Program-made: the position numbers and the translations under genes
Shown: piece by piece, positions 7,021 to 45,100 of the stretch
How the letters are laid out: the number at the start of each line of letters is the position of its first letter
How positions within the stretch are numbered: the stretch's first letter is position 1
The notes under the pieces: model-generated
Told to the model about the DNA's origin: nothing
The model's database searches: none
Seen by the model: only the letters and a program-made list of their open reading frames with translations
Assembly: GCA_951828515.1 (NCBI GenBank)
Contig: OX639992.1
Coordinates: 3,946,217-4,010,216, forward strand
Direction: 5' to 3'
Length of the DNA: 64,000 nt
Source of the DNA: an uncultured Poribacteria bacterium
GTDB lineage: Bacteria; Poribacteria; WGA-4E; WGA-3G

Positions 7021-9228
7021 TTAGGATTCACGGGTGACACGCTGTACGCCTTTTAAGCCGCGAATTGCTTGCATGACTGCCTCGAGTTGCTCGGCACCTG
7101 TCACATCTATCGTCAGATTGTCAGAGGCTTCGGCATCATGATGGATGGCGGAGGGTTCAAACTTTCCGGAGCGGATATTCACTTTGTATTGTGCGATAGC
7201 GGTCGTAATTTCACCGAGCATACCGGGTCGGTCACTGCACTCAACGAGAATTTTGACCGGATAGACAGGAGGTGGGTGATTTCCGTTTTCGGATGATGAC
7301 TTTTCGTTCCACTTGACAACTAAGAGTCGTTCGGGTTCGTCAAGGATGCGGATACAACCGGCTCTATGGACAGAAACCCCACGTCCGCGTGTGAGATAAC
7401 CGACGACTTGATCCCCGGGGATCGGATTGCAGCACTTCATGGTTCGCATCATGCCTAAGTCTATATCATTTTCAAGCTGAACAGCCGGCGGCGATTCGGA
7501 TCTTCGCCTTCCGTTAATATCTTCCGGAGATTCGGTCTCTGGTTTCGGTACCTCAGGTTTCAATAGGTTAACAACCTGAGTCGCAGATTCATCCCCATTA
7601 CCAATCCGGACGAAAAGTTCCTCAAGATTTTTAAGTTTGAGTTGCTTAGCAATGTCAAGCAACTTCGAGGAATTGAGATGATCACGAGAATTAAGATAGG
7701 AAACACGTAATTCTGCCGCAAGAAATTTCTTACCCAACTCCAATGCCTCCGCCCTATCCTTTTCACGAAACCATTGATTGATTTTACCCCGTGCTGTCGC
7801 GGTTTTGACGTACGACAACCAGCTCCGGCTCGGCTTGCCGTTCGGTTGTGTCCGAATATTGACCTGATCACCGTTCTCAAGTACACGCCGAATCGGTGCA
7901 ATAGTACCGTTGATTTCCGCGCCGACACATGTATGTCCTATGTCGGTATGAATCTTATAGGCAAAATCGATCGCTGTCGCGCCAGCGGGTAACTTAAAAA
8001 GATCGCCTTTCGGTGAAAAAACATAAACTTCATCTTGAAAAAGTTCCAATTTCATGGATTCCACAAAATGATGCGGACTATCCTGCGTCTCCTGTATATC
8101 CTCAAGTATCTGCTTATAACTCGCAAAAATGGAACGTCCCTGTTGGCTGGTCGGGAGTCCTTCTTTATAACTCCAATGTGCCGCAATGCCATCTTCAGCA
8201 ATCTTATGCATCTGATACGTGCGAATCTGGATCTCAACGGGTTTACCATCATCAAGAATCGTGGTATGAAGTGATTGGTACCCATTTTTCTTAGGTTGCC
8301 CAATCCAATCTCGAAGTCGGTCGGGGTGATAATTCCATTTGTGATGGAGCGCGCCGAGCGCGATGTAGCAATCAGCTTCAGTCTTAACAAGGATTCGAAG
8401 ACCGATCAGATCTCGGATTTCACTGAAGGGGGTCCCCTTCTGCTGCATCTTCTGGTAAATGCTATAGATATGTTTCGTTCTACCATGAATATCGGCAAAA
8501 ACATTGCGACTTTCCAATTCTTGGCGAATCTGTTTAACCATCTTCTCACAGTATGCCTCTCGCTCAGCAAGCTTCTGATTTAGGAGTTCAGCAATTTTTC
8601 GGTATTCGATTGGGTAAAGATGCTTGAACGCAAGGTCCTCAAGGCGTCCCATAATACGCCAAAGCCCCAATCGGTGTGCGATCGGGGCATAAATTTCTAA
8701 CGTTTCCTTTGCGACGCGTTGGCATTTCTCACTGGAAAGAAACTCCAGCGTTTCCATATTATGAAGTCGATCCGCGAGTTTAATCAGAATTACCCGCATG
8801 TCTTCCGCTGTCGCTAACAGGAGTTTCCGGTAAGTTTCGGCTTGCCGTTTCCGGTGGACGCGGTGTTCAACTGTGCTTTTCGTATCCGGGGCTTGGGAGA
8901 CAATACTGAGTTTGTATTGACCGATCTTTGTGACACCCTCGACAAGATTGGCGATATTGGCACCGAATCGAACCTGCATCTCTTGACGCGTGATCCCTGT
9001 ATCTTCAAGGACATCGTGCATGAGTCCGGCACAGATCGTGTGCGTATCCAGTCGGAGTTCAGCGAGTATTTCAGCGGTTTTGAAGCAATGCGTAAAATAG
9101 GGTTCCCCGGATTTTCGCTGTTGTCCATTATGTGCCTCTTGGGCAAAACGGTAGCAACGTTCCAGAAGTTCAACCTCTGCGTCCGGATTATATACTTGAA
9201 TTTGGTTCACTAAGGATTTGATACTCAT
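7021..9228 (-). CDS. rel: Bifunctional (p)ppGpp synthetase/hydrolase, RelA/SpoT family
   Basis: 735 residues, the normal length. Makes pppGpp/ppGpp from GTP/GDP and ATP in starvation and degrades it again. Domain order: HD hydrolase (about 20-180) with an intact metal site (His47, His71-Asp72 in MHDVLEDTG, and a later Asp in IKLADRLHN); synthetase (about 240-360; GRTKHIYSIYQKM, LIGLRILV, NGYQSLHTTI); TGS domain near 390-455 (VYVFSPKGDLFKLPAGATAIDFAYKIH); conserved-Cys region with CCNPIPGDQVVGYLTRGRG; C-terminal ACT domain (ILVECSDRPGMLGEITTAI). The intact HD site predicts a true bifunctional enzyme. The start overlaps the recJ 3' end by 41 bases on the same strand, so the two are co-transcribed. 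Confidence 0.96.
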   Translation of the reverse strand: MSIKSLVNQIQVYNPDAEVELLERCYRFAQEAHNGQQRKSGEPYFTHCFKTAEILAELRLDTHTICAGLMHDVLEDTGITRQEMQVRFGANIANLVEGVTKIGQYKLSIVSQAPDTKSTVEHRVHRKRQAETYRKLLLATAEDMRVILIKLADRLHNMETLEFLSSEKCQRVAKETLEIYAPIAHRLGLWRIMGRLEDLAFKHLYPIEYRKIAELLNQKLAEREAYCEKMVKQIRQELESRNVFADIHGRTKHIYSIYQKMQQKGTPFSEIRDLIGLRILVKTEADCYIALGALHHKWNYHPDRLRDWIGQPKKNGYQSLHTTILDDGKPVEIQIRTYQMHKIAEDGIAAHWSYKEGLPTSQQGRSIFASYKQILEDIQETQDSPHHFVESMKLELFQDEVYVFSPKGDLFKLPAGATAIDFAYKIHTDIGHTCVGAEINGTIAPIRRVLENGDQVNIRTQPNGKPSRSWLSYVKTATARGKINQWFREKDRAEALELGKKFLAAELRVSYLNSRDHLNSSKLLDIAKQLKLKNLEELFVRIGNGDESATQVVNLLKPEVPKPETESPEDINGRRRSESPPAVQLENDIDLGMMRTMKCCNPIPGDQVVGYLTRGRGVSVHRAGCIRILDEPERLLVVKWNEKSSSENGNHPPPVYPVKILVECSDRPGMLGEITTAIAQYKVNIRSGKFEPSAIHHDAEASDNLTIDVTGAEQLEAVMQAIRGLKGVQRVTRES

Positions 9229-11788
9229 GTTCTATGCGCTCCCACATAGATTCGATATTTTCCTTTAATTGAAACTCTATAAAAGAAGGACTCGTCTGTT
9301 TAATCCATTCCCCTTTCAGATAGGTCGGTGAACGAGATAAGTCGCTTTTCTGACCCGAAAGGAGTTTTACAAGTCTACTACCCGGTTGCCCCTGCCGCTC
9401 AATAAACTGCAATTCCTCAAAGATAGTGAGTCCAGTTTGAAGGGCTGACAGGTTCCCAAATCCACCTTTCAGTATCTCTGCTTCAGGGTATCCGTCTGTG
9501 CCATTCGATTGTATAACCGCTCGTATGCTACCGTACAATCGCCGTAACTCGTCATCGGCTGGATATTTTTCAGAAATCCAATTGTGCATCTCCGATTCAT
9601 CTGTATTGTTATAGATGAGATGCAAATAAGAAGTCTCGGCAGTCGCAAAAGCAGGTTCGCACCGTTTGAAAAAAAGGTCTTGGCTCGATGCGAGATGACA
9701 GAAAACAACGTGTTTAACGAAAGGGAACGTTTCCAGAGAAGGAAAAGTGCTACTCGACGCGATCGTTTGAAGTTCACCGTTTTTCAATTGGTTCAATAAC
9801 GTTGTTGCCTCTGCTTCTGATGTCGCTTCATTGTGCCGTGCGATCCCCTCGATGCTCTCCGGCAAGAGTTTTGTGAGCAGGAGATCTAACATCTCTTCGT
9901 CTCGTACATAAATTATACAAGATTCCTCCCGCGCAAGCAAGTTTAAAAGATAGTTCTTTTTATTAACGTTCCTTTTGTCAACAAGTTTTACAGAAGATTC
10001 ATCACTAAGTTTGGGAAATACATCCCAGTTCGTGTCTCTACCTTCGGAATGGATCTCCCAATCTCTAAGGATCAGTTGTACGGAACGGGTCCCTTGCCAC
10101 TCATTGATTTGGGGTGAAAAGGCGATATTCAGTGACATATTGGGACGTCTGAAGGTGATGAGTTTGTCCCCTGCGCCCCAGTCAATCGCGCACCGTTTTA
10201 CCGTGCCGTCGTTAACAAACATTCGCAGATGGTTTTTCTCTTTCCCCATTTGGGTAGGGATACCATCCACTTTGACGCGTCGTGTTCCAAAATAGGGGGC
10301 TGGATTATCCTTACCAAAAGGTTCAAATTGTTCCAGTTCCTTTAGCGTCTCTAACGTCAAAAGTGAAAGACGCGTTTCAAACTCAAGGTCGAGTTTCGGT
10401 AGCAATGCTTCCTCTGTGAGATGCTCACAAGCGAATTTGTTGAAAGCTTCCCTGAATTTGGGTATATTTTTAGTCTTAAGTGTTAACCCTGCCGCCGCTG
10501 CGTGTCCACCGTGTTTCACGAGCAATTCAGTGCAGGCGACAAAACTATCAGCAAGGTTCATGCCGTTGATACAGCGCCCGGATCCAGTCGCCTCATCGTC
10601 GTCGATTGCGAGGATAACGATGGGTCTGTGGAAGGTTCGCATCAAACGGGCGGCAATGATACCGACGACCCCTTTTTCTTTCCCTTTTGCTGCATCTTCT
10701 GCTTTTTCGTCCCACTTGTCGCTGGCAACAACAATCCCCACGGTATCATCATCTATCTCGTTTTCAATTATCTTCGATGCCTCCTCTTGAATCTGCTTTC
10801 CCAACTCCTGTCGCATGTGATTTTCCCGATTGAGTTCAGAGGCAATCCGAGTTGCGACATCTTTAGAATCGGTGGTGAGGAGGTCAACCACTTTGTGGGC
10901 GGTATCCATACGTCCAGCGGCATTGATGCGGGGTCCCAACTTAAAAGAGATAGCGTATCCGTCAAGCGGTGTGTCAATATTGTGCCCAGCGACTTCGCAC
11001 AAAGCATGAATTCCGAGGCGTTCGCGTTTGTCAAGTTCTGCTAACCCCAAGCGACTCAAAATGCGATTCTCCCCAGTCAGCGGTGCGATATCTGCGACGG
11101 TCCCCAATGCTACCAGATCCAGTTGAGACTCCAGAAACGCTGTATCGTCTGCTAACGCCTGTGCTAATTTAAAGGCTAAACCGACACCAGCGAGTTCGGT
11201 GTAGGGGTATTCATTTCCCGGAATCTTAGGTGAAATCAAGGCGTATGCTGGTGGCTGTTCCTCTTCTGGCTGGTGATGATCTGTGACAATAACATCTATA
11301 CCCAATTTATTCGCCAACGCTACCTCTTTAACCGAGGTGATACCACAATCTACAGTAATAAGTAACTTCGCTTCGTTTTTCTGGTGTATCTTTTCTACAG
11401 TGTCCTCACTAAGCCCGTAACCATCTCCAAACCGATTCGGGATATAGTAATCAACGGGAACATCCATTTGGCGGAATGTATTGAGCAGCAATGCAGTCGC
11501 GGTTGTACCATCGACATCGTAATCGCCATAGACACAGATTTTCTCACCGCGTGAGATCGCCTTGTGTATCCGTTCTACGGCTTTGTCCATATCTGCTAAT
11601 TTAAAAGGAGAATGCAATTCATCGAGAGTTGGATAAAGATAGGATCGCGCTTCAGCAGCCGTTTTGATCCCTCGATTGATGAGCAGTTGTGCCGCAAACG
11701 GAGAAACCCCTACTTCGGATGCCAATACTAAACTGCTATCGAAATCTGAATTTCTGAACTGCCATTTCTTGGAGGAGGGTTTTCTCAT
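9188..11788 (-). CDS. recJ: Single-stranded-DNA-specific exonuclease RecJ
   Basis: 866 residues. Processive 5'-3' ssDNA exonuclease of recombination and mismatch repair. DHH-phosphoesterase core: metal ligands in VYGDYDVDGTTA (Asp89, Asp91, Asp93) and the DHH motif at 170-172 (VTDHHQPEEE). The DHHA1 part follows (SGRCINGMNLADSF and KHGGHAAAAGLTL). The OB-type DNA-binding domain lies around 480-580. About 290 further residues form a C-terminal extension of the kind found in long RecJ proteins of Firmicutes-like and cyanobacterial type; minimal RecJ is near 570. Overlaps rel downstream. Confidence 0.95.
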   Translation of the reverse strand: MRKPSSKKWQFRNSDFDSSLVLASEVGVSPFAAQLLINRGIKTAAEARSYLYPTLDELHSPFKLADMDKAVERIHKAISRGEKICVYGDYDVDGTTATALLLNTFRQMDVPVDYYIPNRFGDGYGLSEDTVEKIHQKNEAKLLITVDCGITSVKEVALANKLGIDVIVTDHHQPEEEQPPAYALISPKIPGNEYPYTELAGVGLAFKLAQALADDTAFLESQLDLVALGTVADIAPLTGENRILSRLGLAELDKRERLGIHALCEVAGHNIDTPLDGYAISFKLGPRINAAGRMDTAHKVVDLLTTDSKDVATRIASELNRENHMRQELGKQIQEEASKIIENEIDDDTVGIVVASDKWDEKAEDAAKGKEKGVVGIIAARLMRTFHRPIVILAIDDDEATGSGRCINGMNLADSFVACTELLVKHGGHAAAAGLTLKTKNIPKFREAFNKFACEHLTEEALLPKLDLEFETRLSLLTLETLKELEQFEPFGKDNPAPYFGTRRVKVDGIPTQMGKEKNHLRMFVNDGTVKRCAIDWGAGDKLITFRRPNMSLNIAFSPQINEWQGTRSVQLILRDWEIHSEGRDTNWDVFPKLSDESSVKLVDKRNVNKKNYLLNLLAREESCIIYVRDEEMLDLLLTKLLPESIEGIARHNEATSEAEATTLLNQLKNGELQTIASSSTFPSLETFPFVKHVVFCHLASSQDLFFKRCEPAFATAETSYLHLIYNNTDESEMHNWISEKYPADDELRRLYGSIRAVIQSNGTDGYPEAEILKGGFGNLSALQTGLTIFEELQFIERQGQPGSRLVKLLSGQKSDLSRSPTYLKGEWIKQTSPSFIEFQLKENIESMWERIEHEYQILSEPNSSI

Positions 11789-11970
11789 AGTGTTTTACCG
11801 GTGTTGGGGCAAGAAACCTGTACTTCACAATACAGTCGAGTTTACAAGCAACGTTTTTTCGATTATGGATATATTACCACAAAAATTGAGGATTGTCAAT
11901 TTTTTCCGTACTAACATTACTGGTGACCGATTACTGAAAATTGAAGGGTTCTGATTATCGCAAATATAAT

Positions 11971-11999
11971 TTGACAAAGCGAGTCGCATGTGGTATCAT
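11971..11999 (+). promoter_or_regulatory. Strong promoter of the ferredoxin transcript
   Basis: TTGACA, 17 bases, TATCAT. It lies about 205 bases before the ferredoxin ATG, giving a long leader. Confidence 0.7.
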
Positions 12000-12011
12000 T
12001 TATCAAAACCT

Positions 12012-12167
12012 CTCGCTTCAGCGAGCGGAATATGTCAAAGTGTCCTGATCGCAACTCAGCAGGCACAGCGAAAAATCCGCCATATATGACCATGTCTTTG
12101 TAACGCCTTCATCAAATGGGACGAACCTCGTCCGTTAAGTGAAGTTACCGTCCGTGTGATATGGAGG
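12012..12167 (+). ncRNA. Structured 5' leader (or small RNA) ahead of the ferredoxin gene
   Basis: A small hairpin CTCGC-TTCA-GCGAG sits at 12012-12025. After that comes a nested three-stem fold. The outer stem is 12077-12085 with 12159-12167 (8 of 9 pairs). The middle stem is 12100-12111 with 12140-12148 (nine pairs, 3-base bulge). The inner stem is GGACGA/TCGTCC, 12119-12124 with 12128-12133. No open frame covers it. It starts at a near-consensus promoter and ends about 38 bases before the ferredoxin start. I do not recognise it as a known riboswitch, 6S RNA, SRP RNA or tmRNA. Confidence 0.5.
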
Positions 12168-12204
12168 CTCTTATAGTAAATTTAGCGGAAAGGAGTTTTC
12201 CAAT

Positions 12205-12462
12205 ATGACGTATGTCATTTGTGAACCGTGCATTGATGTTAAGGATAGTGCATGTGTTGATGTGTGTCCAGTGGACTGTATTCATCCTCTACCCGATGCT
12301 GATGAGTTTGAAGAAATGAATCAGCTTTACATCGACCCGGAAGAGTGCATCGATTGTGGGGTGTGTGAACCTGAATGCCCCGTTGAAGCTATCTTCATGG
12401 AAGAAGATGTCCCTGAAGAATGGGACGAGTTCATCGAAATCAATGCCGAGTACTTTGAATAA
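12205..12462 (+). CDS. fdxA: 7Fe ferredoxin (3Fe-4S + 4Fe-4S)
   Basis: 85 residues; a small soluble electron carrier. The cysteine pattern maps onto Azotobacter FdI: Cys9, Cys17 and Cys58 for the 3Fe-4S cluster; Cys21, Cys48, Cys51 and Cys54 for the 4Fe-4S cluster; and the extra Cys25 present in that family. The tail is acidic (EEWDEFIEINAEYFE). The start at 12205 has AAAGGAG upstream. It is a single-gene unit with a strong promoter, a structured leader of about 200 bases and an intrinsic terminator. The redox partner is not evident from neighbours. Confidence 0.92.
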   Translation: MTYVICEPCIDVKDSACVDVCPVDCIHPLPDADEFEEMNQLYIDPEECIDCGVCEPECPVEAIFMEEDVPEEWDEFIEINAEYFE

Positions 12463-12499
12463 CGGATAGTAGGAGTAATCCTTCGATCGCAACTCATTG

Positions 12500-12556
12500 A
12501 ACGGTTGCTGGTTTGCGAGACCATCTGCGGTCACACAAATTGGCAACCGTTTTTTT
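12500..12556 (+). terminator. Intrinsic terminator after the ferredoxin gene
   Basis: 9-bp stem AACGGTTGC (12500-12508) with GCAACCGTT (12543-12551), followed directly by a T-run. The 34-base loop holds a second small hairpin GACC/GGTC. Confidence 0.75.
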
Positions 12557-12589
12557 CTAAACAGAAAGTATTTCTGTTGAAAAGTCACC

Positions 12590-12907
12590 ATGCAGAAATT
12601 CCAACCGACTCGCATTGAAAGAGGCAGCGCAAGCCTGGAAATTCGATGGAAAGATTCGTATCACAGCGAACTGTCCTACCGAACCCTTCGACAAAAATGC
12701 CCGTGTGCCCGTTGTGATGCCACCCGATTAGGAAAAGATCCTTTTCACATCCTACCCTCTGACGATTTCTTTGAGAACTTACATCTCGTGGACATTCAAC
12801 GCGTCGGACGCTACGCGGTGAGGTTGGTATGGAACGACGGACATCGTACTGGAATTTATACGTTTGAGTTTTTGCGTGAGTTGAGTGAAAGTCCCCCTGA
12901 AGTTTAG
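12590..12907 (+). CDS. DUF971 / gamma-butyrobetaine hydroxylase N-terminal-like protein
   Basis: 105 residues. Short stand-alone DUF971 domain: RTLRQKCPCARC near residues 31-42 and the diagnostic end LVWNDGHRTGIYTFEFLREL. In eukaryotes and proteobacteria the domain precedes gamma-butyrobetaine hydroxylase or lies near the Fe-S carrier ApbC/Mrp. Here it stands alone after an Fe-S ferredoxin, separated by that gene's terminator. The Cys pair CPCARC could bind metal. Molecular function is unknown; an Fe-S link is suggestive only. Confidence 0.85.
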   Translation: MQKFQPTRIERGSASLEIRWKDSYHSELSYRTLRQKCPCARCDATRLGKDPFHILPSDDFFENLHLVDIQRVGRYAVRLVWNDGHRTGIYTFEFLRELSESPPEV

Positions 12908-12942
12908 GTTTCATTTCAGGGAACACCGCCCCCAGCACCGCT

Positions 12943-12963
12943 GGCGAGGATTGTATCCTCGCC
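12943..12963. repeat. Hairpin repeat (GGCGAGGAT/ATCCTCGCC)
   Basis: Perfect 9-bp stem (12943-12951 with 12955-12963), loop of three. Compared with the copy at 2239 the core T-T/A-A pairs have changed together, so pairing is kept. Confidence 0.65.
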
Positions 12964-13050
12964 CATCTTTGGGTGTATAAGTAATTCTATAATTCACCAT
13001 AGTTTGTGCAGGGGTGTAGCGCAAACTATGAAGTTTGCACTACAATAGGA

Positions 13051-13079
13051 GTGTCCAAGTAATTGTGGACTTTACTATA
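13051..13079. mobile_element. Diverged right end of the TATAGTAAA MITE family
   Basis: 29 bases matching the right end of the three intact copies (17787, 36620, 55021) with only a handful of differences, ending in the terminal repeat CTTTACTATA. No matching left end is visible, so this looks like an old fragment. Confidence 0.5.
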
Positions 13080-13086
13080 AAAAAGA

Positions 13087-13106
13087 GGTGAGGTCAGGAC
13101 CTCACC
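13087..13106. repeat. Hairpin repeat (GGTGAGGTC/GACCTCACC)
   Basis: Perfect 9-bp stem with a 2-base loop, directly after the MITE fragment and 30 bases beyond the stop of the YkgJ-family gene. Confidence 0.65.
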
Positions 13107-13137
13107 AACAAGAGAAGAGTGGAAGCCATGTTTTGCG

Positions 13138-13707
13138 TTATTCTGATAGCAACCGTGAGACGAGATAGCAGTTCGGGGTTTTCCGAGTAGCACCCAGTTC
13201 CGTGCTAAGATTCTGACATACCTTCCAATAGCGATCGTAACTGAGTGGACGAAAGCGATTCCGTTTCCCAATGAAAGTTTTGTGGCAACAGGCTAACTCA
13301 TTGCCACTGTGGATCGGATATCCCCAAACACGACAGATGACTGGGCGGTGTTCGTAAACGGCACAAACCCCACCGATGAGCATAGGACACTCGCCTTCAG
13401 GCGTGCCTTTTATAACCCCAATTGCTTTCATACCAGCATCCGGCGTTATATTTTCAGCGTCATAGCCGTGTGCCTTCAATTTTCTGATGCTCTGTTCCGC
13501 TTTCTGACGAATATGTGAACGGATTTCAACAGGAAGTGCATCCAATCCTACTTTTAAGTCGCGTGCCTCAACTTCACTGATCGCCATAGTTGCGGTATTT
13601 TGGCAGCACGAGAAGCAGTTGGATGGACACGGCACACCTCCCGATTCTTCGCGCAAACGTCCGACATCGCGCTGAATCTCATCAAGGAGTTCGTGATATG
13701 CTTCCAT
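13138..13707 (-). CDS. YkgJ-family cysteine-cluster (Zn/Fe-chelating) protein
   Basis: 189 residues. N-terminal CxxxCxxCC cluster (Cys27, Cys31, Cys34, Cys35), then GECPMLIGGVCAVYEHRPVIC followed by Arg. This is the diagnostic layout of the YkgJ/CxxCxxCC family, thought to bind Zn or an Fe-S cluster and sometimes linked to post-translational modification. The start lies 8 bases after the stop of the cold-shock/Hfq-like gene on the same strand, so the pair forms a tight operon. Precise function unknown. Confidence 0.87.
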   Translation of the reverse strand: MEAYHELLDEIQRDVGRLREESGGVPCPSNCFSCCQNTATMAISEVEARDLKVGLDALPVEIRSHIRQKAEQSIRKLKAHGYDAENITPDAGMKAIGVIKGTPEGECPMLIGGVCAVYEHRPVICRVWGYPIHSGNELACCHKTFIGKRNRFRPLSYDRYWKVCQNLSTELGATRKTPNCYLVSRLLSE

Positions 13708-13715
13708 GGTAGCAC

Positions 13716-14675
13716 CTAATCTACGGCAAGACTGTATACAGCGTGCCGGAAGATAACAACCTTCGCACCGTTCTCTAAAATGAGCTTAATTTCATAAGGA
13801 CTGACCCAGTCTATAATGCCACGAAAGATCTCTCCCTCTCGGAGTGTGATCTCAATTGAGGTTCCATTTTTTCGGGCGTGCTGAACGACTTCGGTATCAA
13901 TCTCAGGGGCTTGCACATCAGGCATCAGTTGTGTCAACTGCTGCGCCTTCACGGCATCATCGGTATCAACGGATGCTTGAACCCTTTCTGCGTCAACGTC
14001 TTTATAACAGTATTTAACATCTGTTTTAGCGATCTGCTGCTCGCCCTTATTACTATTGAGTGTCAAACTGGAGAGTGTCATTTCAAGGACAGTAGCAGGC
14101 AGTTGTAGCTGATTATACAACGCAAAGAACATGGATGTTTCAAAATTAATCTGCTTAAGGATATAAAGATCGCCAAAACTGAGTTGCTTTGAAGATGGGG
14201 TTTGCGCCTCTTGTGTCGGTGCTGTGGAATCCTTAATATCCATCGCCGACGGACGTGGGGTGCGTGGTAGTTTTGCCGTCGGTCCCGATGGGGATACAGA
14301 TGTATCATGGGCGCGACGATTCCGAATCGGTTTTGATGCATTGGCATCATGGTGAGAGGCGGGCATGGCATCATCACTGGCAAATTGACCTTGCCCTTGG
14401 CCCGGGAAGCCAGCGTAACCTCGCGGAATAATTGCCTTTCCTTGACGCAACCATCGGCGTTCTGTTGGGGTCAACAATACTTCGACGTTTTGGGCAACGA
14501 GTCCCTTCTCACCTTCAATAATACTGTACTTTACACGCTGTCCGACACGGAGTTCTTCGTATTCAGGCTGCTTAATAGCGGAGCTATGTAAGAAGACATC
14601 CGCGTCACTGCTATCTTGCGCTATAAATCCGAAGCCTTTATCGAAATTGTAGTACTTAATCCGTCCTGTAGGCAT
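13716..14675 (-). CDS. Cold-shock domain protein with C-terminal Hfq-like Sm domain
   Basis: 319 residues from the second of two adjacent ATGs, which has AGGAG six bases upstream. Residues 1-68 are a cold-shock domain with RNP1 KGFGFI (13-18) and RNP2 VFLH (27-30), an ssDNA/RNA-binding beta barrel. Residues ~70-165 are a low-complexity, Pro/Ser-rich linker. Residues ~165-235 form a second folded block of unknown type (LYILKQINFETSMFFALYNQ). Residues 267-319 read like Hfq: a Sm1-like stretch (TSIEITLREGEIFRGIIDW) and a Sm2-like VIFRHAVYSL, matching Hfq's YKHAIS. No separate hfq is in the window. Probably an RNA chaperone; the domain combination is unusual. CSD call firm, Sm call by eye. Confidence 0.82.
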   Translation of the reverse strand: MPTGRIKYYNFDKGFGFIAQDSSDADVFLHSSAIKQPEYEELRVGQRVKYSIIEGEKGLVAQNVEVLLTPTERRWLRQGKAIIPRGYAGFPGQGQGQFASDDAMPASHHDANASKPIRNRRAHDTSVSPSGPTAKLPRTPRPSAMDIKDSTAPTQEAQTPSSKQLSFGDLYILKQINFETSMFFALYNQLQLPATVLEMTLSSLTLNSNKGEQQIAKTDVKYCYKDVDAERVQASVDTDDAVKAQQLTQLMPDVQAPEIDTEVVQHARKNGTSIEITLREGEIFRGIIDWVSPYEIKLILENGAKVVIFRHAVYSLAVD

Positions 14676-14845
14676 CATATGCTCCTGCGGTCTTGTCCCT
14701 TTTCAGGAAGGTGACGTTAACCATTCGCGTTCCTGCGCGAGCATTCCTTATTTTCGGTTTTTCTTCACACAACAACTCGACCCTTTATCATATTCTTCAG
14801 CGTCAAAACTCCATGCTTTCGCGTGGAGATGTAGACGCGTTTTTC

Positions 14846-14874
14846 TTGAAATAAGTTGTTGAATCTGCTATAAT
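14846..14874 (+). promoter_or_regulatory. Consensus-like promoter with no gene directly behind it
   Basis: TTGAAA, 17 bases, TATAAT. The next sense gene starts 485 bases downstream. Confidence 0.7.
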
Positions 14875-14880
14875 ACTTTC

Positions 14881-15224
14881 AGAGTGTAAGGTTGCTATAG
14901 AGGCTCTGGTTACGAAGCTCTTGGTAGCGTTCCTATAGTGTAAAACTCTAAAAAACGGTTATCTATCAATAAATCGTAGCTCGACATACACAGTAGGGAA
15001 AGACGGGTAATGCTGAATCCCATTTGAAAATGTGTATCAAAATTTTTCGTAAGGACACTTTTGTGTCGCAGTCGGGATAGCGTCTGTTGCAGTAGGTTAC
15101 GTAAGTCTTTCGCTAGAAAGCAGTGGTCGTCGATCGCACGAAAGCTTCTGTAGAGACTACAACTATAGAGGCCGCGCCCTTTAGGGCGAGGTCTATCACA
15201 CAATAGAACAGACCTCATCTTTTT
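14881..15224 (+). ncRNA. Candidate non-coding RNA of about 345 nt
   Basis: Bounded by a sigma-70 promoter (14846-14874) and a terminator-like hairpin (15188-15224). No sense frame of useful length lies inside. Local hairpins: an outer pair AGAGT/ACTCT (14881-14885 with 14945-14949) enclosing two CTATAG boxes; CTTTC-GCTA-GAAAG near 15107-15120; GTAG-AGA-CTAC near 15150; CGCCC-TTTA-GGGCG near 15175-15187. tmRNA and RNase P hallmarks are missing. It could instead be a long attenuated leader of the amidohydrolase gene. A 102-codon frame on the other strand has no recognisable product. Confidence 0.45.
15188..15224 (+). terminator. Terminator-like hairpin
   Basis: GAGGTCT (15188-15194) with AGACCTC (15210-15216), loop of 15, then ATC and five T. 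Perfect 7-bp stem but a short T-run offset by three bases. Confidence 0.5.
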
Positions 15225-15358
15225 AGGATCAATGCTGTCCTATAACAGTGGAAAGAGAGGTAAGTTACCAAGACATCATATATTAAATCATAATTCGACG
15301 CATTTGTCAAGTACGAGACGATAAACAGTCCGTTTCAATTTTTTAAAGGAGCCCTTTC

Positions 15359-16648
15359 ATGGCAACTACCGATTTGACGCATCATATTCAATCTATTCGC
15401 CTTGTTGATACACACGAGCACATGAAGCGTGAAACCGAATGGGTTGAGAATGGACCCGATATCCTCCAAGACCTATTTGGAAATTATGTGCCTGCCGACT
15501 TGGTAACAGCTGGTGCCTCCCCAGAAGCGATGCGCAACCTGATGGACGCTTCTCAAGACATCGCATCTCGGTTTGAAGGCATCCGAGACGCGTGGGGAGC
15601 AACGCAGTTTACCGGGTATGGAGAGGCAGTCAGCCTCATCGCGAAGCACATCTACGGACTCGACGAACTGACGGGTGATGGACTCGCGGGTGCCGATAAT
15701 CTAAAGACGCTTCGCACGCCCGGCAAACGTTATCACATTTTACACGATCTCGCAAACCTTGATCACATTCAAACAGACGATTTCAGTTGGCAGTGCACAC
15801 CGGACACATCCGGTCCCGATTTTTTCCTCTACGATCTCTCGTGGGCGACATTCTGTAACGGACAAGTTGATCCGAGTGCTATCCACGCCGAGACAGGTGT
15901 TCAGGTCAACGACCTGGCATCACTCAAGCGGGCTATGGAGGCAATCTTTGCCAAGCATGCCCCTTGTGCGATCGCTGTAAAATCACAACACGCTTACAAC
16001 CGCACCCTCAACTGGATCGAAAGGAGCGATGCTGAGGCGTCTACTGCCCTGAATGCTGTGCTCACGAAACCTGCTGCAGAGGTTGACGAAGCGACGCGGC
16101 TCTGCCTCGGTGATTGGTGCTGGGCGCGAGGCGTTGAACACACGATTGAACACAACCTCCCGTTCAAAATTCACACCGGCTATTATGCTGGCAACGATCG
16201 GATGCCGGTGCGGCGCATCCCTGCCGGTAATATGTGTGCCCTTTTCGCTCGGTATCTCGACGCGAAGTTTGTATTGATGCACATCGCCTACCCTTATAAC
16301 GATGAACTGGTCGCACTCGCCAAGCATTATCGTAATATTTGGGTCGATTTCTGCTGGGCGTGGAGCATTGATCCTTACAGCTCGCGTGATTTCCTCCGTC
16401 GGTGCATCCATGCCGTTCCGTCAAATAAATTGTTCGCTTTCGGCGGCGATACGGGGTGGCCAACCAGTGCGATGGCGTATGCGATTCAAGCCAGAAACGA
16501 AATTCGGCGCGCACTTGAAGCCGAAATTGCGGACGGTTACCTCACGGAAAAACAGGCGATGGGGTTCGCGACCCGGATTATGCATACAAACCAGCATGAC
16601 TGTTTCGATATAAACGGCACCCGATCGAATATCGCAAAGGCAGCGTAA
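15359..16648 (+). CDS. Amidohydrolase family (uronate isomerase-like) protein
   Basis: 429 residues. TIM-barrel metal hydrolase of the amidohydrolase_2 group. The metal-binding HxH-type motif is DTHEH near residue 17; further family landmarks are PFKIHTGYY, FVLMHIAYPYNDE and the late Asp in FAFGGDTGWP. Overall layout resembles glucuronate isomerase-like amidohydrolases often annotated in environmental genomes; substrate unknown. The start has AAAGGAG nine bases upstream. The 480-base upstream region holds a promoter, a possible ncRNA and a terminator-like hairpin, so expression may be attenuated. Converges on mtnA (14-base gap). Confidence 0.85.
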   Translation: MATTDLTHHIQSIRLVDTHEHMKRETEWVENGPDILQDLFGNYVPADLVTAGASPEAMRNLMDASQDIASRFEGIRDAWGATQFTGYGEAVSLIAKHIYGLDELTGDGLAGADNLKTLRTPGKRYHILHDLANLDHIQTDDFSWQCTPDTSGPDFFLYDLSWATFCNGQVDPSAIHAETGVQVNDLASLKRAMEAIFAKHAPCAIAVKSQHAYNRTLNWIERSDAEASTALNAVLTKPAAEVDEATRLCLGDWCWARGVEHTIEHNLPFKIHTGYYAGNDRMPVRRIPAGNMCALFARYLDAKFVLMHIAYPYNDELVALAKHYRNIWVDFCWAWSIDPYSSRDFLRRCIHAVPSNKLFAFGGDTGWPTSAMAYAIQARNEIRRALEAEIADGYLTEKQAMGFATRIMHTNQHDCFDINGTRSNIAKAA

Positions 16649-16662
16649 TCTGTAGGATTTCG

Positions 16663-17703
16663 CTATGCGTCCCGTAAAGCCTCCAAGTTCTCTGTATAAG
16701 GAGCACGTGCCACACCTTTTTCGGTAACAATTGCCGTGACTAACGCCGCGGGTGTAACATCAAACGCAGGACTATAAACCTTGACCCCTTTGGGTGCGGT
16801 AAGTTTCCCGAAGCCTTCGGTTACCTCTTCTGCCGCCCGTTGCTCAATAGGGATTTCTGCCCCGGTTTCAAGGGCGAAGTCTAAGGTAGAAGTCGGTGCA
16901 GCGACATAAAAAGGAATCCCGTGTGCTTCCGCGAGGATGGCGACATTATAAGTGCCGATCTTGTTTGCAGTGTCCCCGTTTGCCGCGATCCGGTCGGCAC
17001 CGACAATGACGCATTGGATTTTCCCCTCTTTCATGACCTGCGCCGCCATGTTATCACAAATAAGTGTCACATCAATGCCTGCTTGCATGAGTTCCCAAGT
17101 GGTGAGGCGTGCGCCTTGTAAAAGGGGGCGCGTCTCGTCAGCGTAAACTTGGATTTTTTTACCTGCTTCGTGTGCGCTGAACATAACAGCTAACGCTGTG
17201 CCATAGTCGGATGTCGCTAATCCTCCAGCGTTGCAATGCGTCAAAATAGTGTCATTTTCTTTTAGCAACGCCATACCGTGTTGACCGATGGCGCGACACA
17301 TTGCCTTGTCCTCATCAATAATTTCCAGAGCCTCAGCAAGCAGCACCGCTTTGAGGTCAGGAATTTGAAGGTGGTTGTTCTCTTGCGCTGTTCGGGTGAT
17401 TCTATCCAGTGCCCAAAAGAGATTAACGGCTGTGGGTCGCGATGTCGCTAAATAGTCGGTAGCGGATTTCAGTTCTGCGGCAAAAGTATCATAGGTTTTC
17501 GCTGTGGAATTCCATATTCCGAGCACCGCGCCCAAAGCACCAGCGATGCCGATTGCGGGGGCACCGCGTACACGTAGGGATTTAATTGCCTCCCAAGTTG
17601 ATGGAAGATCGTCGCAATAAATTTGTTTGAATTCATTGGGCAACAGCGTCTGGTCGATCATCCGAATTCTACCATTCACCCACTCAATTGTTGAAACTGC
17701 CAT
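16663..17703 (-). CDS. mtnA: S-methyl-5-thioribose-1-phosphate isomerase
   Basis: 346 residues, normal length. Converts methylthioribose-1-phosphate to methylthioribulose-1-phosphate in the methionine salvage pathway. Catalytic Cys157 in LTHCNAGGLATSDYGTAL and Asp237 in IVGADRIAANGDTANKIGTY correspond to the Cys/Asp pair of the Bacillus enzyme. RVRGAPAIG near residue 45 is also diagnostic and separates it from eIF2B regulatory subunits. No other salvage genes lie beside it. A MITE copy lies upstream (17787-17922). Confidence 0.95.
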   Translation of the reverse strand: MAVSTIEWVNGRIRMIDQTLLPNEFKQIYCDDLPSTWEAIKSLRVRGAPAIGIAGALGAVLGIWNSTAKTYDTFAAELKSATDYLATSRPTAVNLFWALDRITRTAQENNHLQIPDLKAVLLAEALEIIDEDKAMCRAIGQHGMALLKENDTILTHCNAGGLATSDYGTALAVMFSAHEAGKKIQVYADETRPLLQGARLTTWELMQAGIDVTLICDNMAAQVMKEGKIQCVIVGADRIAANGDTANKIGTYNVAILAEAHGIPFYVAAPTSTLDFALETGAEIPIEQRAAEEVTEGFGKLTAPKGVKVYSPAFDVTPAALVTAIVTEKGVARAPYTENLEALRDA

Positions 17704-44751: not shown

Positions 44752-44788
44752 AAAAAACCTTCTCGTTCCAAATATGGAGACGAGAAGG
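44752..44788 (-). terminator. T-box-controlled intrinsic terminator
   Basis: Perfect 9-bp stem CCTTCTCGT/ACGAGAAGG (44758-44766 with 44780-44788), followed on the minus strand by six T. Located directly after the T-box sequence. Confidence 0.85.
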
Positions 44789-45100
44789 ACATGTACACTG
44801 GCCTTACCGTGGTACCACTCCAATTCTCTTTCTCATTTCATTCGAGGTATTGGGCTTACAAAGCCCTTCTACAATAAGAAAGAGCACTCTTTGGGATGCG
44901 TTAACGGACATCACACCGACTAATCCTACTGATGTCCTACGGACTGTTCAGATTAGCAACTCCAGGGCGACCTTGGGTCGTAGGAACTTGAGGAGACCTT
45001 TCAGCCTATGAATCTCCTTCTCTCGCAAGCCCGGACGACTTACTCCTCCCCTTCAACGCTTTTTTGGGTAATCTATTTAATTTTTTTTAATTGTGCACGC
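44752..45100 (-). promoter_or_regulatory. T-box riboswitch of the ilvBN(C) operon
   Basis: Minus-strand leader with the T-box sequence GGAGTGGTACCACGG (the TGGTACC core at 44809-44817), which pairs with the free 3' end of uncharged tRNA. TGGT predicts discriminator A, as in tRNA-Ile. The upstream Stem I region has GGAGGAGTAAGTC, AGAGAAGG, and a helix TCCGGGC/GCCCTGGA around 45036 and 44960. AATCTGAAC on its 3' side makes AUC (Ile) the likeliest specifier, though the base after it is not a purine. The terminator at 44752-44788 completes it. The exact 5' boundary is approximate. Confidence 0.85.

Follow-up and report, generated by a model that had tools for sequence, protein, structure and literature searches.

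A single protein of Poribacteria carries, in one chain, a cold-shock domain (CSD) and two Sm/Hfq-like domains. All three folds are recognized by profiles and by structure prediction, the arrangement is conserved in the phylum, and no other CSD or Hfq is found in the source genome. As a rule, Hfq and the cold-shock proteins are two distinct kinds of small, general RNA chaperone; the fusion protein probably handles by itself RNA work that other bacteria divide between these two protein families.

Gene and domain organization

The fusion gene was located in a stretch of 64,000 nucleotides, here called the window, and the coordinates and the length of 319 residues given for it in an earlier note on this DNA are correct. 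The start MPTG at 14675 is common to the relatives, with an ATG at 14678 immediately before it. The features are the following:

14682-14686, minus strand: AGGAG, likely ribosome binding site as read from the sequence, 6 nt upstream of the conserved start codon
13716-14675, minus strand: fusion gene, 319 aa, CSD-linker-Sm1-Sm2; residue 1 at 14675, stop codon 13718-13716
14481-14669, minus strand: cold-shock domain, residues 3-65, RNP1 KGFGFI and RNP2 VFLH intact (PF00313)
14397-14477, minus strand: conserved post-CSD segment, residues 67-93, LLTPxExxWLxQGKxIIPR, basic (alignment of relatives)
14187-14396, minus strand: disordered linker, residues 94-163, rich in A/S/P/T (pLDDT, composition)
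14001-14177, minus strand: Sm1, cryptic first Sm/Hfq-like domain, residues 167-225 (model topology, hhalign to L139)
13896-14000, minus strand: inter-Sm helical connector, residues 226-260 (helices 226-235 and 240-244 in the model)
13722-13895, minus strand: Sm2, Hfq-like domain, residues 261-318 (Hfq_1/Hfq profiles, Foldseek)
13740-13751, minus strand: FRHA motif (residues 309-312), which occupies the place of YKHA in Hfq with the uridine-pocket residues K56/H57 (conservation in 52 sequences)
13138-13707, minus strand: downstream CxxCxxCC (YkgJ-like) gene, 189 aa (PF03692, E 3.4e-4)
13087-13106, minus strand: terminator-like hairpin followed by a T run, past the CxxCxxCC gene (pattern match; shuffled sequence yields about as many such matches as the region does)

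The Rfam search gave no match at the fusion locus. Elsewhere in the window a T-box leader (RF00230, 99.8 bits) lies at 44773-45065 on the minus strand, unrelated to the fusion gene.

The N-terminal CSD, which had been proposed from its KGFGFI and VFLH motifs, is unambiguous: residues 3-65 match PF00313 with an E-value of 1.2e-19 and 70.4 bits (curated Pfam cut-off 27), and the predicted model aligns by Foldseek with CspA (1mjc) at a TM of 0.88 by target length. On its RNA-binding face all 52 sequences have F17, F28 and H30, with either F or Y at the position of F15. The domain lies outside the CspA-like equivalogs, with 67.8 bits vs the NCBIfam CspE cut-off of 120 and a chain of 319 aa, not the approximately 70 aa of a standalone protein. 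The post-CSD segment that follows has five positive charges and one negative, and forms a short helix at 70-77 in the model; the linker region has a pLDDT below 50 for residues 82-173 of the AlphaFold model.

The C-terminal Hfq-like domain

Residues 263-315 match the Pfam families Hfq_1 (E 3.7e-5) and Hfq (E 1.5e-3), with values that are weak alone and slightly under the curated cut-offs. Against the Hfq_1 cut-off of 27 (PF21979) the score is 24.2 bits for the whole protein, 25.8 for the C-terminal part alone and 27.3 in the genome search, and 22 genomes of the phylum exceed this cut-off. The Hfq equivalog cut-off is missed by the fusion protein, which scores 18.5 bits vs 61.7 for TIGR02383 and 27 for PF17209; the best profile matches of Sm2 are Hfq_1 and the cyanobacterial model NF047718.

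Judged from profiles and the predicted structure, this weak Hfq signal is beyond chance, because an Hfq match is obtained in 13/14 divergent relatives (best E 8.7e-8), because paralogues within the phylum exceed the Hfq cut-off of 27, reaching up to 43.5 bits, and because Hfq alone tops the structural matches. When the AlphaFold model of the C-terminal part (160 residues; mean pLDDT 83.9, pTM 0.81) is compared with the PDB, the top 13 matches are all Hfq chains, led by 1kq2 (E 1.5e-4, TM 0.89 by target length). Hfq chains align with the model at TM values of 0.61-0.90 by target length, and the N-terminal helix and five-strand barrel of the Sm fold are both present, Sm2 being modelled as a helix at 261-270 followed by five strands. 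The earlier note had described an Sm-like C-terminal region, to be abandoned if profile searches placed it in another fold or its strands failed to align to Hfq above chance; profiles, relatives and predicted structure all point to Hfq. A different fold for the C-terminus is ruled out by the top Foldseek matches, all of them Hfq, and the assignment stands.

The correspondence between the Sm domains and the Hfq numbering was aligned by hand, and on this alignment FRHAVY falls alongside YKHAIS of Hfq, as previously stated; the pocket of the Hfq proximal face (F42, K56, H57) is kept in Sm2, with Y for F and R for K as conservative replacements. These uridine-pocket positions are well conserved (Y294 in 52/52 sequences, R310 in 46/52, H311 in 49/52), as is the adjoining F309 (52/52). 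The A-site residues of the distal face of Hfq, Y25 and I30, are not kept, T277 and E282 being found in Sm2.

Sm1 and the origin of the tandem module

Between the CSD and the Hfq-like C-terminus the earlier note had placed a linker and an unknown middle block. The former is confirmed as a disordered linker (about 94-163), but the latter is a second Sm domain that had been missed. In the AlphaFold model Sm1 consists of a helix at 167-175 and five strands at 181-225, with pLDDT mostly 82-93, and this region (167-225) repeats the order and spacing of the helix and five strands of Sm2 (261-318). The predicted chain has two Sm domains, a departure from the single Sm of Hfq. The claim that two RNA-chaperone folds coexist in one chain, a CSD and an Hfq-like Sm, is upheld by profiles and structure prediction.

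The Sm1 sequence alone matches no Pfam family. In 52 sequences, its pocket positions show an invariant K217, T218 where His would be expected and mostly L204 instead of an aromatic residue. The Sm1-Sm2 module is net acidic. Small single-Sm proteins of the Hfq_1 type occur in a deep branch of Poribacteria (L139:5992-6279 and L140:5764-6168); that of L139, with 96 aa, is over both the Hfq_1 and the Hfq cut-offs. The Sm1 profile matches L139 over 58 columns with 31% identity, a probability of 96 and an hhalign E-value of 1.9e-9; L139 also matches Sm2 (E 1.1e-7), vs 0.17 for the reversed Sm2 profile against L139, all these E-values being single-pair comparisons that are not database-scaled. Moreover, Sm1 and Sm2 align in register with a score of 20.1, which none of 100 column shuffles reached (mean 9.3, maximum 14.1). 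From these profile matches and the in-register alignment, together with the modelled topology, we conclude that the tandem Sm module probably goes back to a duplicated single-Sm protein of the Hfq_1 type.

Distribution in Poribacteria

A near full-length CSD-Sm-Sm chain is present in 69/85 genomes of the phylum: 56/59 in the family of the source genome, 2/2 in f2, 7/9 in f3, 3/3 in f4 and one genome in f5, the genomes of the own family that lack the full-length fusion being drafts. Frameshift or misassembly as a source of the fusion is ruled out by the same architecture in 69 genomes, several of them closed. Identity drops with taxonomic distance, as vertical descent predicts, and in a scan of a genome collection the named relatives are Candidatus Poribacteria in 54/54 cases. 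No convincing relatives were found in phages, plasmids or viral contigs, one match to a plasmid (E 0.03) covering 29% of the query.

In the closed 5.85 Mb source genome no second CSD, Hfq or tandem-Sm match was found, the fusion protein alone matching each, so that the search for a separate hfq suggested earlier turned up none; CsrA and ProQ were likewise undetected in this genome. In each of four further family genomes assembled as a single contig, the CSD and the tandem Sm were both matched once; one of these genomes, G047, has in addition an Hfq-like domain in a helicase. Since several family-mates carry extra Hfq-like paralogues, the sole-copy status holds for the source genome and some others, not for all. 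As for standalone cold-shock proteins, a single short CSD frame, near a contig edge, was seen in the 59 genomes of the own family; they are present in every f2 and f3 genome. The simplest reading is that the own family lost the standalone proteins and retained the fused CSD.

Gene neighbourhood

The CxxCxxCC gene starts 8 nt past the stop codon of the fusion gene, on the same strand, and its product scores 21.7 bits with PF03692, just below the Pfam cut-off of 23. The tight pairing with a YkgJ-type Cys-cluster gene that had been noticed in this DNA is real, being kept, adjacent and co-oriented, in 42/49 loci (one per genome); the two genes likely form an operon. The neighbour is missing from L050 and from genera g5 and g9, both of which keep the fusion. 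A metal or redox link through the CxxCxxCC protein is possible on the basis of conserved gene order.

The other neighbours are a protein with a GBBH-like N-terminal domain, a ferredoxin, an amidohydrolase and proteins that, by sequence recognition, we take to be RecJ, Rel/SpoT and MtnA, a setting that differs from the miaA/hflX/mutL neighbourhood of the classic Hfq clade (PMC11607428). In the window, the order over 7021-17703 is Rel/SpoT, RecJ, ferredoxin, GBBH-like, CxxCxxCC, fusion, amidohydrolase and MtnA, largely kept in close relatives, and the ferredoxin gene is sometimes tandemly repeated in relatives (L032, L039).

Related architectures in the phylum

Other members of the class have the Sm-Sm module without the CSD, with an arginine-rich N-terminus instead, and both kinds are found in f3. 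In several genomes of one genus, tandem-Sm proteins of about 300 aa, over the Hfq cut-off (L066:7989-8903, L067:7485-8441, L068:7731-8588), have another conserved region at the N-terminus, FALGQIVFL..., which may be SH3-like.

Paralogous tandem Sm domains are also found in other Poribacteria at the C-terminus of defence-type proteins (L126, L127, L128, L129, L130, L131, L132 and L133), where the partners are GmrSD restriction-like and sacsin/TmtA-like proteins, a UvrD helicase with GIY-YIG and GajB similarity, and an RNase_H_2 exonuclease; three paralogues of the GmrSD type bear an additional C-terminal CSD. This pattern suggests that the tandem Sm is a mobile module used to bind RNA in conflict systems.

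Proposed function

We consider it fairly probable that the fusion protein serves Poribacteria as a combined RNA chaperone, built as an Sm ring with tethered CSD arms. By analogy with the two families, ring formation, a trimeric stoichiometry, RNA binding and a chaperone or matchmaking role would be expected, and the protein may act as a post-transcriptional regulator. The tandem Sm would close into a ring of few chains, most likely three, giving a pseudo-hexamer of six Sm domains in which Sm1 and Sm2 alternate. Sm2, with Y294, R310 and H311 for F42, K56 and H57, would retain the uridine pocket of the Hfq proximal face; Sm1, where most pocket residues are lost, may serve assembly or a different contact. 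Because the two domains differ in pocket residues, the ring, if formed, would be chemically asymmetric. With one CSD per chain, carried on about 70-90 disordered residues, it would hold several single-strand-binding arms, which may capture and melt RNA and hand it to the ring. In its own family the fusion protein would replace both Hfq and the standalone cold-shock proteins. Against a combined chaperone stand the lack of a Pfam match for Sm1, its changed pocket, the loss of the distal face in Sm2 and the acidic nature of the module. The most complete version, a merger across the whole family in which three chains make up a pseudo-hexameric, asymmetric ring that bears three tethered CSDs and replaces Hfq and all cold-shock proteins, copies of the tandem-Sm module having been recruited to bind RNA in defence proteins, can be put forward only tentatively.

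An arrangement without a ring appears rather unlikely; in it the two Sm domains would pack as a compact intrachain pair, similar to tandem Tudor domains, and bind a protein or RNA ends, the CSD being left to bind RNA. Foldseek matches FMRP tandem barrels over 145 columns, although with TM of only 0.19-0.24, and such a pair would fit the different conserved residues of Sm1 and Sm2, the helical connector and the pTM of 0.81 of the C-terminal construct, which denotes a defined two-domain arrangement. However, the best structural matches are all Hfq chains, which form rings by their edge strands, and both Sm domains retain the full alpha-beta5 topology that rings require.

Somewhat less likely still is a role of the tandem Sm in docking a protein, perhaps the co-encoded CxxCxxCC protein, instead of RNA, on the model of Synechocystis, whose Hfq, of the related type, is reported to act by docking to the pilus ATPase PilB1 (PMC4390875). 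The part of PilB1 that cyanobacterial Hfq binds, at its C-terminus, has a four-cysteine motif (PMC4390875); the Cys-cluster gene is the co-oriented neighbour in 42/49 loci, and Sm2 scores highest with Hfq_1 and the cyanobacterial NF047718. These correspondences have to be weighed against the conservation of the pocket (R310 46/52, H311 49/52), the attached CSD with its intact RNA face, and genera g5 and g9, which have the fusion without the CxxCxxCC neighbour. Finally, a defence-related sensor in which CSD-Sm-Sm detects foreign RNA is very improbable: the tandem Sm is mobile in the phylum, with paralogues fused to GmrSD, sacsin-type/TmtA, UvrD/GajB-like and RNase_H_2 proteins, three of them with a C-terminal CSD, and CSDs are the predicted RNA-binding parts of Type IV CoCoNuT systems (PMC11090510), but the fusion gene is single-copy, vertically inherited and without an effector domain, and it lies in a conserved setting of housekeeping genes such as those for ferredoxin, MtnA, RecJ and Rel/SpoT.

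As a combined chaperone, the conserved chain of CSD and duplicated Sm would offer a natural test of whether annealing by a ring and single-strand melting work together on one RNA molecule. It could also show how a homomeric Sm ring starts turning heteromeric, as in archaea and eukaryotes.

Comparison with known systems

No paper on a CSD-Hfq fusion, on such a tandem-Sm protein or on a Poribacteria Hfq was found in the literature searched, subscription papers being mostly outside the search; the fusion protein is a candidate main RNA chaperone for this phylum of sponge symbionts, for which none is described in that literature.

With CspA-type cold-shock proteins (PF00313) the fusion protein shares the complete CSD fold with RNP1 and RNP2; differently from these standalone proteins of about 70 aa, its CSD continues into a conserved basic helix, a linker and two Sm domains. 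Hfq (PF17209, TIGR02383) is alike in the Sm fold with its N-terminal helix, in YKHA corresponding to FRHA, in the aromatic residue at the F42 position and in the probable RNA chaperone role, whereas the two Sm domains per chain, the CSD, the score (18.5 vs 61.7 bits), the other neighbours and the lost distal face set the fusion protein apart. Prokaryotic Hfq is split into a classic and a mobile clade, and cyanobacteria have the mobile clade only (PMC11607428). The Hfq_1 or cyanobacterial-type Hfq (PF21979, NF047718) is the best profile match of Sm2, and L139 bridges Sm1 and Sm2; known Hfq_1 members are single-Sm, whereas the Poribacteria protein is tandem and fused to a CSD. Two Hfq units per chain are apparently described by NF010691 (PRK14091), judging from the 176 positions of this Hfq model, but it lacks a CSD and its match to the fusion protein is insignificant (E 0.11). 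Within the class, a genome from a different family has a frame of 195 aa (L138:6118-6702) that joins a CSD to an Hfq-like domain, as in the fusion protein; it is a simpler form of the architecture, with one Sm only, in which QKHA is kept, vs two in the fusion protein. The CSD and the Hfq-like parts are both of known kinds; what seems new, as far as can be told, is that they are combined, that the Sm unit is duplicated and that the standalone proteins have apparently been replaced.
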